From assembly GCA_947372745.1 (NCBI GenBank), contig CANBUY010000006.1:1-64000 (forward strand): a DNA stretch of 64,000 nucleotides, read 5' to 3'. Under the pieces are notes generated by a model. The model was not told where the DNA came from. It saw nothing but the letters and a program-made list of their open reading frames with translations, and made no database searches. The translations under genes were made by a program, and so were the position numbers. Positions 37,815 to 41,803 of the stretch are shown here, piece by piece; position 1 is the first letter of the stretch; each line of letters begins with the position of its first letter. Origin of the DNA: Comamonadaceae bacterium. GTDB lineage: Bacteria > Pseudomonadota > Gammaproteobacteria > Burkholderiales > Burkholderiaceae_C.

Positions 37815-37940
37815 CCTCTAACCATACCATCTGAGGTGACACCCTGAGCACATGACGCCGCGTCCAGGAACAACTTTGATCGAAAAAATCTCAGGCGAAA
37901 TAATCTTTAAACTTCAAGAAAAAGATTATCTTCATTATAT

Positions 37941-37960
37941 TAATTTAATTTAATTTAATT
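37941..37960. repeat. Short tandem repeat (TAATT)x4
   Basis: Four direct copies of a pentanucleotide (TAATT) in the AT-rich gap between the glyoxalase-like gene and the exported unknown protein. It lies just past the stop of the latter. It could be a slippage-prone tract but no reading frame crosses it. Confidence 0.7.
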
Positions 37961-37988
37961 TAAATTCAATTATATTAATATATAAATA

Positions 37989-38447
37989 TTACTGATCACT
38001 CAACAGCACTACACCGCCTTGTGTAACGATTCTTCGTGCTTCAACAAACCCGCCCCTATTGACGGCACTAGATAACAGTCGGCTTTTAGCCCCACTGGTC
38101 ATGAGTAGCGAGCCATCATTTAATTGGCTGATATCACCATTTTTAATTAATTCATTGAGCGCACCTTGGTTTACGACATAAGACAATGTGGTGACGTCTT
38201 TGAAAGCAACGGTCGGTAAAGTTTCCGTGCCAAGCGTGGTGCTGCCAATAGATGCCTTTAAATGTGCTTGCTTATCAACGACTGATGAACTCTCGGACGC
38301 GAGAAATTTCCCAGAATCAATGAGGCGTAAATTGTTTAAATTGAGGGTCGTCGCAATCAAGTCGGTAATGGCTTGACTCTCAGCCGTTGCTGACTGAGCA
38401 AGTGCACTCATCAATACAAGAGCTGCTGCAAATAATATTTTTCTCAT
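37989..38447 (-). CDS. Small exported protein of unknown function
   Basis: A 152-residue protein with a clear signal peptide (MRKILFAAALVLMSALAQSATAE). The mature part is about 125 residues, Ser/Leu/Thr-rich and without cysteine. I choose ATG 38445-38447, which has GGAG 6 bases upstream; an ATG one codon earlier and a TTG at 38459 are also in frame. The composition and AT-rich flanks differ from its neighbours. I do not recognise the family. The region LSYVVNQGALNELIKNGDISQLNDGSLLMTSG could be a repeating strand-turn unit. Confidence 0.6.
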   Translation of the reverse strand: MRKILFAAALVLMSALAQSATAESQAITDLIATTLNLNNLRLIDSGKFLASESSSVVDKQAHLKASIGSTTLGTETLPTVAFKDVTTLSYVVNQGALNELIKNGDISQLNDGSLLMTSGAKSRLLSSAVNRGGFVEARRIVTQGGVVLLSDQ

Positions 38448-38935
38448 CATTATCTCCAATACAAAGAATTAAGAAAACAGGAATTAATATTCCTGCTTAA
38501 ATTTTAAATCTTCAAATTAAAATAATTTAACTATATTTCAGTTGATCGATTTGAAATAAATAAAAATGCTTGTCGCCTAATATTGATGGATTGAATTTCA
38601 ATAAATATATTTGCAATAATATATTTATGTCATATTTACTCAAATTAACAGGGTAACTAACGTTAAAACCGTCTATGCCCAACGAATAGTGAGGGGCTTT
38701 ATCTCATTTCGCATCAACGGCAAATGAGTGCGCGACGACCAACACACTTCCGCGTTAACACCGGCATCAGCATCACACAACTTTGTGCCCCTGTTAAATA
38801 AGTGAGCCTAGTCGCACCTCGCCACAAGCCCACCTCTGTTGCATCTTCACTCTCAAACCAGAACATTAGCGATTAATCAATAATTTATGTTTAAATTAAG
38901 TTTTTAAAATTTAATTACGTAAATTATTGGTTTAA
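38448..38935. other. AT-rich gap with several small inverted repeats
   Basis: The only gap above 300 bases. No credible reading frame is seen. CAGGAAT-TAAT-ATTCCTG lies at 38478-38495, 31 bases upstream of the exported protein gene and so a possible operator. A perfect 11-bp inverted repeat, ATAAATATATT/AATATATTTAT with a 6-base TGCAAT loop, is at 38601-38628. The last 60 bases before the restriction-modification gene are almost entirely A/T and carry no ribosome site. Confidence 0.65.
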
Positions 38936-41803
38936 ATGACAAAATTCATTAACTTCGCATCTAATGCTGCTCAAACCACCCAAGAATTGCAAGACCAGCT
39001 CAATGAGCGGGCTGAGAAATTTGCCAAAGACTTTGCCCACGCGGCCTATGAAATGGGCGAAGCCCAAAACTTTGTGCGCGAGCTGTGTGGTGTCTATGGC
39101 CTCAACTACCTGCGCTCGGTAGACTTTGAGCGCCGTGTGGCCAAAGAGAGTGGCGTGGGCATCAACCGCATTGACGGCTTTTTTCCGGGCCTGTTGCTGG
39201 TCGAAATGAAGTCCGGCGGCAAAGACCTCCAGGAGGCCTACGCACAAGCGAAGGCCTACATCCCCAAGCTCAAAAACTTGGATGATGTGCCGCGCTACAT
39301 CTTGGTCAGCGACTTTCAAAACCTGCATCTGTATGACGAAACGGGCATCAACCCACCCATCAAATTCAAACTCGCCGACTTTAAAAGCCACGTCAACGAC
39401 CTCGATTTTTTGCTTGGCTACGAGCGCATTTACCAAGCGCGCCAAGCCGCAGCCAGCATTGAAGCCGCCAACCGCTTGGGCTCCCTGCACGACGCCATCA
39501 AGCAAACCGGCTACCGGGGCCAGGACCTGCAAACCCTGCTGGTGCGCTTGTTGTTTTGCCTGTTTGCCGACGACACCCGCCTCTTTAACAAAGAAGATGC
39601 CTTCAAACAAGCGGTGCAAAGCAGCAACAGCGCGGGCGACGACTTGGGCAGCAAGCTACAACGCATCTTTCGCCGCCTCGACACCAACCCGGCGCAAACC
39701 AAGCAAGCCGAAACCAGCGCACAACGCACCGACGGGCAATACGCCTACCTGCTGGACTTCCCCTACATCAACGGAGCACTGTTCACCACGCGCATAGAAG
39801 ACCCCGACTTTGACGGTGTCTCGCGCCAGGCCCTGCTGGGCTGCTGCGACTTGGATTGGTCCGACATCAGCCCCGATATTTTTGGTACTTTGTTTCAGCA
39901 CATCATGCATTGGGACGACGAAGAGGCCGAGGGCAAAAGCAAAAAGCGGCGCGACTTTGGCGCCCACTACACCAGCGAACGCAACATTCGCCGCGCCATA
40001 GACCCGCTGTTTCTGGACGCCCTGAAAGACGAGCTGGCCCTAATCAAAGGCGACGCCAAAAAGCTGGGCCTCTACATCGCCAAATTAGCCACCCTGCACA
40101 TTTTTGATCCCGCCTGCGGGTGCGGCAACTTTTTGGTGGTGGCCTACCGCGAGCTGCGCTGGCTGGAGCAACAAACCCTGCTGGAACTCAACAGTATTAA
40201 GGGCGCGCAGCAAACCATGCCGCTGTGCAATGTGCACCAGTTTCACGGCATTGAGATTGACCCTACGGCGGTCGAGATTGCCACCGTGGCCATGTGGCTG
40301 ACCGACCACCAGATGAACCAACACTGGGCCAGCGGCTACAAACGCATCCCTTTAGTGAGCAAAGCCAACATCCACTGCGGCAACGCCTTGCGCACCGACT
40401 GGGAGACCGTGCTGCCCGCTGACAAAACCAGTTTCATTGTGGGCAACCCGCCATTTTTGGGCTACACGCAGCAAAGCCCAACGCAAAAAGCCGACATGGC
40501 CTTGATTTACGGCAACGCCCAAGGCACCGGCGTGCTGGACTACGTGACCGCTTGGTACGTGAAGGCGTTTGCACAGATCAAGGCCAATCCGCTCATCAAG
40601 GCGGCGTTTGTGTCGACCAACAGCATCACACAAGGTGAACAGGTATCGGTACTTTGGAAGCCCCTGTTTGACCAAGGTTTGCACATCCAGTTTGCGCACC
40701 GCACCTTCAAGTGGAGCAACGAGGGCTCGGGCGTGGCGGCCGTGCACTGCGTGATCGTCGGCTTTGGGTTGGAAAAGCCGAGAAAGTGTGACCTGTGGGA
40801 CTACGGTGCGCTGATAGGGGGACAGGGGCAACTGAAGAAGACCCGACGCATCAATGCGTATCTGGTGGATGCGCCTGCGATTTTTCTGACGAAGGTACGC
40901 AAGCCTTTGCAAGCGGACGTGACTGAAATGATTTTCGGAAGTAAACCCACCGACGGCGGTCATCTTCTTCTCAACGCCGAAGAAGAAAAAACCCTCCGAG
41001 CCAGTGACCCGATAGCGGCCCAATACATCCGTCCGTTTTTGGGTGCCGACGAATTTTTGAACAATACGGCGCGCTTTTGCCTGTGGTTGGACAAAGTTAC
41101 CGCACACGACTTGGCGCACTCACCCGAGCTCAAGCAACGCACAGAAGCCGTCCGTGCCATGCGGCTGGCCAGTCCCAAAGTACCCACGCAAAAATTAGCG
41201 GAAGTTCCGCATTTGTTTGGTGAAATCCGGCAACCCACAGACAAATATTTGCTCGTTCCGCTGCACTCATCAGAAAACCGAGCATTCATTCCAGTTGGCT
41301 TTTTAGACAGCCAAGTCATTTGCGGCAATGCCAACTCGCTCATTCCCAACGCCACGACCTACCACTTCGGCCTACTCAGTTCAACCATGCACAACGCCTG
41401 GACGCGCGCTGTCTGTGGCCGTATTAAAAGTGATTACCGCTACTCCAACACCATCGTTTACAACAACTACCCGTGGCCTAACCCCACTAATGCGCAGCAG
41501 GCCAGCATTGAGGTCGCTGGGCAAGCCGTGCTGGACGCCCGTGCCCAGCACGTTGGCAAAAGCTTGGCATGGCTCTACAACCCCGAGACCCTGCCTAAAA
41601 ACCTGCAAAACGCCCATGACTTGGTAGACGACGCTGTCGACGAAGCCTACGGCTACGACAAAGGCAACGACGACACCAGCCGCGTCGCCTATTTGTTTGA
41701 GCTGTATGAAAAGCTCACCCTTGCACCCTTGCTAGCGCCCAGCAAGCCAGCCCCCAAAACGCGCAAACCCAAAGCCCAAAGTGGCAAGAGCGGTAAGCTA
41801 TGA
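38936..41803 (+). CDS. MmeI-like (Type IIL) single-chain restriction-modification enzyme
   Basis: A 955-residue fusion of nuclease, methyltransferase and specificity domains. The PD-(D/E)XK nuclease is seen as D80-X9-E90-X-K92 (RIDGFFPGLLLVEMKSGG), with the same spacing as in MmeI. A helical linker (about 165-330) leads to the gamma-class N6-adenine methyltransferase: motif I FDPACGCGNFL (390-400) and catalytic NPPF (504-507). The C-terminal part (about 620-860) should be the target recognition domain, ending YRYSNTIVYNNYPWP. All key residues are intact, so it looks active. Family members cut about 20 bases from the site and protect one strand by methylation. The start lacks a Shine-Dalgarno site. 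Confidence 0.9.
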   Translation: MTKFINFASNAAQTTQELQDQLNERAEKFAKDFAHAAYEMGEAQNFVRELCGVYGLNYLRSVDFERRVAKESGVGINRIDGFFPGLLLVEMKSGGKDLQEAYAQAKAYIPKLKNLDDVPRYILVSDFQNLHLYDETGINPPIKFKLADFKSHVNDLDFLLGYERIYQARQAAASIEAANRLGSLHDAIKQTGYRGQDLQTLLVRLLFCLFADDTRLFNKEDAFKQAVQSSNSAGDDLGSKLQRIFRRLDTNPAQTKQAETSAQRTDGQYAYLLDFPYINGALFTTRIEDPDFDGVSRQALLGCCDLDWSDISPDIFGTLFQHIMHWDDEEAEGKSKKRRDFGAHYTSERNIRRAIDPLFLDALKDELALIKGDAKKLGLYIAKLATLHIFDPACGCGNFLVVAYRELRWLEQQTLLELNSIKGAQQTMPLCNVHQFHGIEIDPTAVEIATVAMWLTDHQMNQHWASGYKRIPLVSKANIHCGNALRTDWETVLPADKTSFIVGNPPFLGYTQQSPTQKADMALIYGNAQGTGVLDYVTAWYVKAFAQIKANPLIKAAFVSTNSITQGEQVSVLWKPLFDQGLHIQFAHRTFKWSNEGSGVAAVHCVIVGFGLEKPRKCDLWDYGALIGGQGQLKKTRRINAYLVDAPAIFLTKVRKPLQADVTEMIFGSKPTDGGHLLLNAEEEKTLRASDPIAAQYIRPFLGADEFLNNTARFCLWLDKVTAHDLAHSPELKQRTEAVRAMRLASPKVPTQKLAEVPHLFGEIRQPTDKYLLVPLHSSENRAFIPVGFLDSQVICGNANSLIPNATTYHFGLLSSTMHNAWTRAVCGRIKSDYRYSNTIVYNNYPWPNPTNAQQASIEVAGQAVLDARAQHVGKSLAWLYNPETLPKNLQNAHDLVDDAVDEAYGYDKGNDDTSRVAYLFELYEKLTLAPLLAPSKPAPKTRKPKAQSGKSGKL

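Follow-up and report, generated by a model that had tools for sequence, protein, structure and literature searches.

Does the long forward-strand gene in this stretch of a Comamonadaceae genome encode a complete restriction-modification system in one working protein, and if so, which DNA site would that protein recognize? The window (the whole stretch of 64,000 nucleotides that was analysed) belongs to a draft assembly of 217 contigs with 6.4% contamination. The assembly is perhaps a metagenome bin, and therefore there may be no source strain that could be sequenced.

Family membership of the gene

The features of the locus are collected in Table 1. The open reading frame is complete, and it carries the five domains of the MmeI family in the MmeI order, every one of them over its curated Pfam cut-off (E-values of 1e-29 for MmeI_N, 8e-19 for MmeI_hel, 3e-83 for MmeI_Mtase, 1e-73 for MmeI_TRD and 5e-23 for MmeI_C). 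These family matches are far beyond chance. The best PADLOC family is REase_MTase_IIG (Type IIG restriction enzyme-methyltransferase, 7.8e-304), and a sequence search of the PDB aligns residues 21-943 with residues 7-916 of MmeI (5hr4) at 9e-237. In a MAFFT alignment the two proteins are 45% identical (406 of 897 paired residues).

Table 1. Features of the MmeI-family locus, in window coordinates
Feature	Position	Strand	Details and basis
Type IIL (MmeI-family) fused restriction endonuclease / m6A methyltransferase	38936..41803	+	955 aa, ATG to TGA; ORF, Pfam, PADLOC, PDB, model
MmeI_N nuclease domain	39008..39505	+	aa 25-190, with D80-X9-E90-X-K92; Pfam, residue mapping
MmeI_hel spacer	39524..39784	+	aa 197-283; Pfam
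MmeI_Mtase domain	40049..40795	+	aa 372-620, motif I, motif IV and W593 inside; Pfam, residue mapping
MmeI_TRD target recognition domain	40871..41482	+	aa 646-849, with contact residues; Pfam, mapping to MmeI contacts, genome match
MmeI_C C-terminal helical domain	41489..41719	+	aa 852-928; Pfam
AT-rich intergenic stretch before the MmeI gene	38460..38935		32.6% GC

The structural comparison gives the same family. An AlphaFold2 model built from 15 aligned sequences (pLDDT 81.8, pTM 0.76) has as its best PDB matches the MmeI chains 5hr4_J (E 1.5e-72) and 5hr4_C (2.2e-72), with a TM score of 0.84 by target length and an rmsd of 5.0. Weaker structural neighbours are CamA, BpuSI, DrdV, M.BseCI and PglX, at E 2.9e-18 and weaker. 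A BREX PglX identity was tried and rejected, as the best score is 39.4 bits against a curated NCBIfam PglX cut-off of 900. The Type IIL identity in the original prediction is therefore upheld by domain order, identity to MmeI and model alike, and the window enzyme is an ordinary, well-preserved new member of this well-known family. The nuclease and methyltransferase domains lie in a single polypeptide, in agreement with the proposal that one protein would provide both restriction and protection.

The enzyme had also been described as solitary. This description stands for the neighbourhood, where no partner restriction-modification gene adjoins the MmeI gene; for the genome as a whole it has to be qualified. 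In the draft genome, which is listed as 86% complete, the window gene is the only MmeI_TRD match, but other N6_Mtase matches occur on contigs C22, C87 and C34, and weakly on C69.

Catalytic motifs, selection and activity

In the nuclease domain, D80, E90 and K92 align with MmeI D70, E80 and K82, whose replacement by alanine is reported to abolish nuclease activity (PMC4833311). The triad is kept in 15 of the 18 aligned loci, and the other three (L003, L011 and L018) have no letters at these columns, where the frame used began downstream; the alignment took in 18 of 23 relative loci and left out the five short matches L020-L024. The structure 5hr4 lacks the nuclease domain, and the nuclease fold is read here from sequence and predicted strands alone: D80 lies between strands 76-79 and 81-83, E90 falls in strand 87-91 with K92 at the strand end, and a helix follows at 98-111. 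In the methyltransferase part, motif I (FDPACGCGNFL) is found at residues 390-400 and motif IV (NPPF) at 504-507. The adenine pocket, formed by NPPF, W593 and H344 (the last ahead of the MmeI_Mtase domain), aligns with NPPF, W570 and H314 of MmeI, which are described as absolutely conserved in 341 aligned family enzymes (PMC4833311). Both the D-X9-E-X-K motif and the methyltransferase motifs are thus preserved, as originally predicted.

Does selection maintain the nuclease? The nearest relatives, found with peptide patterns in genome_contigs, match nearly the whole length of the window enzyme: L002 from a Comamonadaceae bin (81% identity in the best segment), L003 from the isolate Limnohabitans sp. 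WS1 (78%) and L011 from a Limnohabitans bin (76%). Compared with L002, dN/dS is 0.159 for the nuclease, 0.130 for the spacer, 0.123 for the methyltransferase, 0.144 for the TRD, 0.305 for the C-terminus and 0.158 overall. These values show purifying selection on the nuclease domain since the separation from L002. This is a simple Nei-Gojobori count on one pair (80% identical) with dS near 0.9, so that it speaks for long-term and not for present function, and a recent loss would be invisible to it.

These measurements bear on the alternative of an orphan methyltransferase with a regulatory role, of the DnmA (YeeA) kind, which methylates and no longer cuts. There is a precedent, as DnmA of B. 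subtilis, 38% identical to MmeI, is reported to methylate GACG(m6A)G outside any active restriction-modification system (PMC7261158). The same source, however, groups DnmA with MmeI homologues in which the nuclease motif is missing and which adjoin yeeB/yeeC-like genes. In the window enzyme the triad is intact and constraint on the nuclease domain is about the same as on the other domains, which argues for a working nuclease and against an orphan methyltransferase such as DnmA; and the genes that follow, for a GntR-FCD regulator, an L-lactate permease and a TctC-like receptor, are not yeeB/yeeC-like. A DnmA-like layout is seen instead in a Klebsiella plasmid locus (L094), where the triad columns read G/Q/V and a DEAD/DEAH helicase lies downstream. 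We consider an orphan methyltransferase very improbable here.

A second alternative is that the gene lost its activity recently, through a silent promoter or a subtle missense change, and has begun to decay. Of the three closest relatives, two are indeed broken, L003 by an in-frame TAA at codon 110 and L011 by a one-base frameshift, and promoter-like matches around the window gene are at chance level (4 vs. 2.6 +/- 1.7 in shuffles). Against it, the 955 codons hold no stop or frameshift, the catalytic residues are present and dN/dS is low. We give recent inactivation even less weight than the orphan methyltransferase.

We therefore hold, with high confidence, that the locus encodes a Type IIL restriction-modification enzyme that is intact and probably active, and the claim of an intact gene agrees with its unbroken frame and retained catalytic residues. 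By analogy with MmeI, the single polypeptide would use its target recognition domain to bind an asymmetric site of six bases, flip out the adenine at position 5 and methylate it on one strand, which would protect the host. On meeting at least two unmodified sites, molecules would pair by way of the PD-(D/E)XK domain at the N-terminus, and cleavage would fall about 20/18 bases downstream. The one-strand methylation, the pairing and the cut distance are all carried over from MmeI.

The two broken relatives deserve a description of their own. In L003, the frame from 5989 is interrupted just past the nuclease motif, and the next in-frame ATG (6925) would begin a 632-residue methyltransferase-TRD part; this locus is either a natural nuclease-less form or a pseudogene. 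The frameshift in L011 is possibly an assembly error in a metagenome bin.

Predicted target site and specificity among relatives

The published residue code for MmeI (PMC4833311), applied to this one enzyme, predicts the target 5'-C(C/A)NR(m6A)G-3'. The contact residues are given here with MmeI numbers in brackets. The firmest calls are G at position 6, from K831 (806) and D833 (808), and R at position 4, from A799 (774) and R835 (810): in the cited account K806-D808 goes exclusively with G at position 6, and A774 combined with R810 goes with R at position 4. A C at position 1 is likely, as the residues there are K748 (723), G762 (737) and E763 (738), and C:G is reported to go with Arg or Lys at 723, usually together with Glu at 738. 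Position 2, with F667 (642) and K670 (645), is ambiguous. Lys645 is described as going mostly with C:G, and the pair Ile-Lys with A:T in three named enzymes and with C:G in another; we therefore read F-K as C or A. At position 5 the residues are H777 (752) and I830 (805). H777 replaces MmeI T752, which is described as well conserved and as contacting the base opposite the methylated adenine (PMC4833311); histidine occurs in that column in 6 of 31 sequences.

Position 3 is where the code gives no call. The residues are L776 (751) and N798 (773), and the code for this position is described only for E/N (C) and for K or R with D (G) (PMC4833311). The L/N pair occurs in 5 of 31 sequences. From the chemistry, leucine against the thymine methyl and asparagine on the adenine, the base pair is possibly T:A. 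A tentative candidate, which we think less likely than its opposite, is that the site is one unassigned to any restriction enzyme and that L776-H777-N798 adds to the Type IIL code an entry not yet described, filling position 3. The expectation that the site could be predicted from the target domain thus holds in part, with five of the six positions at least constrained and the third without a call. Four plasmid relatives were also fetched, none of them tied to a known site. The motif CMNRAG occurs 499 times in the window vs. 527.5 +/- 23.3 expected, that is, with no depletion; because the enzyme would methylate one strand, this count is uninformative on activity.

How stable is the target among close relatives? 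L002, L003 and L011 all have K/Q at 642/645. L002 has in addition E-R at 806/808; L003 has E751, K774/S810 and K-D at 806/808; and L011 has S751, L774 and E-R at 806/808. Together with the window enzyme these are four different sets of specificity residues. Among the four, 9 of 13 contact columns vary, vs. 87 of 205 TRD columns (hypergeometric 0.042), and 7 of 10 main specificity columns vary (0.070), which suggests a weak excess of variation at the contacts. The 31 sequences compared, with MmeI among them, carry 29 distinct ten-residue contact sets, and ready change of target is a reported behaviour of the MmeI family (PMC4833311).

Genomic surroundings

The gene has 55.9% GC and a GC3 of 70.3%, and eight measured neighbour genes have 53-59% GC and a GC3 of 61-73%. 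Its composition is host-like, as had been claimed, and being like that of its neighbours it is no guide to origin. At E <= 0.001, matches occur in at least 56 of 89 genomes of the window's genus (its own included), many over the methyltransferase part only. Among the matches listed, 9 other genomes of the genus have a single match above 750 bits, and the best other copy is 58% identical over residues 12-821; relatives closer than that came only from the peptide-pattern search. Because the best other copy listed in the 89 genus genomes is only 58% identical, the gene may have arrived horizontally.

The order of the flanking genes is compatible with an insertion. On the left, the genes for a solute-binding protein, an M20 peptidase, an ABC permease, a glyoxalase-like protein and ORF156 have counterparts in the same order on contig C608 of genome G064, at 93-98% identity (ORF156 at 47%); this contig ends there and so does not reach the junction. 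On the other side, the GntR-FCD and L-lactate permease genes occur together in 6 of 14 fetched stretches of other genomes, with about 0.3 to 6.1 kb between them and no MmeI match at a 45% identity filter; three of the 14 have GntR alone and one has the permease alone. GntR and the permease are on a different contig from the glyoxalase gene in G049 and G047. The MmeI gene may therefore stand where the gene order is broken, as would fit an insertion.

Three vehicles were considered and rejected, on evidence that does not bear on the insertion site itself. For a mobile element, there is no tRNA in the window, and the neighbourhood genes were viewed from 33 to 48 kb. For a phage, six peptide patterns gave no match in viral_contigs, and the six phage records at E <= 1e-20 are all below 60% identity. 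For a plasmid, 299 records at E <= 1e-30 are likewise all below 60% identity. The record of Leptospira phage LE1 (BX571876.1, 40704-43403) has an MmeI-like gene of nearly full length, with 40.5% identity and 95% of the query covered, whose annotation says no more than unnamed or hypothetical, and in Pseudomonas mendocina plasmid pPME5 (L095) a 45%-identical relative is directly followed by a gene annotated as an abortive infection family protein.

The gap at 37815-38935 has 36.9% GC vs. 55.9% for the gene, which confirms the AT-rich gap originally noted beside it. It contains ORF156 (37989-38459, minus strand), which has no Pfam match and whose 47% homologue in another species (G064) adjoins the same glyoxalase gene; at 38475-38498, just before the ORF156 start, there is a 10-pair hairpin. 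The start context of the MmeI gene, AAATGAC, is common to L002 and L011, and L003 has AAATGAT. No clear ribosome-binding site is visible by eye before the window gene. In the 120 bases before its start, a search for an operator gave a best inverted repeat with a score of 8, and plain shuffles have a mean of 5.7, with about 3 of 60 at least as high. Over 15 upstream stretches scored in this way, L002 (0.02) and L009 (0.03) also stand out. We rejected an upstream controller or operator for the family, as no repeat is common to these 15 stretches, with L003 and L011 inspected by eye.

The Limnohabitans-type loci have features of their own. An operator-like inverted repeat about 20-45 bases before the MmeI start reads AATGAATA-N6-TATTCATT in L002 and L003, and TGAATA-N6-TATTCA in L011; the arms are kept and the loops differ (scored in L002, by eye in L003 and L011). 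This type of repeat is not seen before the window gene. The three loci have flanking DNA in common with one another, and of ten window genes tested in them, all but the MmeI gene stay at or below 36% identity. PIN-domain proteins, which look like toxins of toxin-antitoxin pairs, adjoin their MmeI genes (L002 4126-4548, L011 9132-9554, L003 5113-5841 on the minus strand), on the basis of Pfam for L002 and L003 and of a start resembling that of L002 for L011. A literature search on Limnohabitans restriction-modification or methylomes had no Limnohabitans paper among the matches listed.

Comparison with known systems

The enzyme is a modest addition, as one more well-preserved member, to a family that serves in the engineering of cutting specificity. 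It resembles MmeI (Type IIL, TCCRAC 20/18; 5hr4) in the five-domain order, the nuclease triad, the gamma-class m6A motifs and the TRD fold, and at the contacts in the A774/R810 pair (position 4) and N773 (position 3). It differs from MmeI at position 6, with K-D vs. E-R and a predicted G instead of C; at position 1, with K723/E738 and a predicted C instead of T; and in having L751/H752 vs. E751/T752, and F vs. Y at 642. DnmA/YeeA of Bacillus subtilis (GACGAG) is, in the cited account, also an MmeI homologue, with its m6A on the fifth base of a six-base site that is not palindromic, but it belongs to a group without the nuclease motif and with yeeB/yeeC adjoining, whereas in the window enzyme the motif is present and neighbours of that kind are absent. 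The partial motif C(C/A)NR(m6A)G is a concrete target to look for in methylomes. Finally, L002, L003 and L011 have a start-codon context similar to that of the window gene and different specificity residues, and with it they form a natural set on which the residue code could be tested, L/H/N at position 3 in particular.
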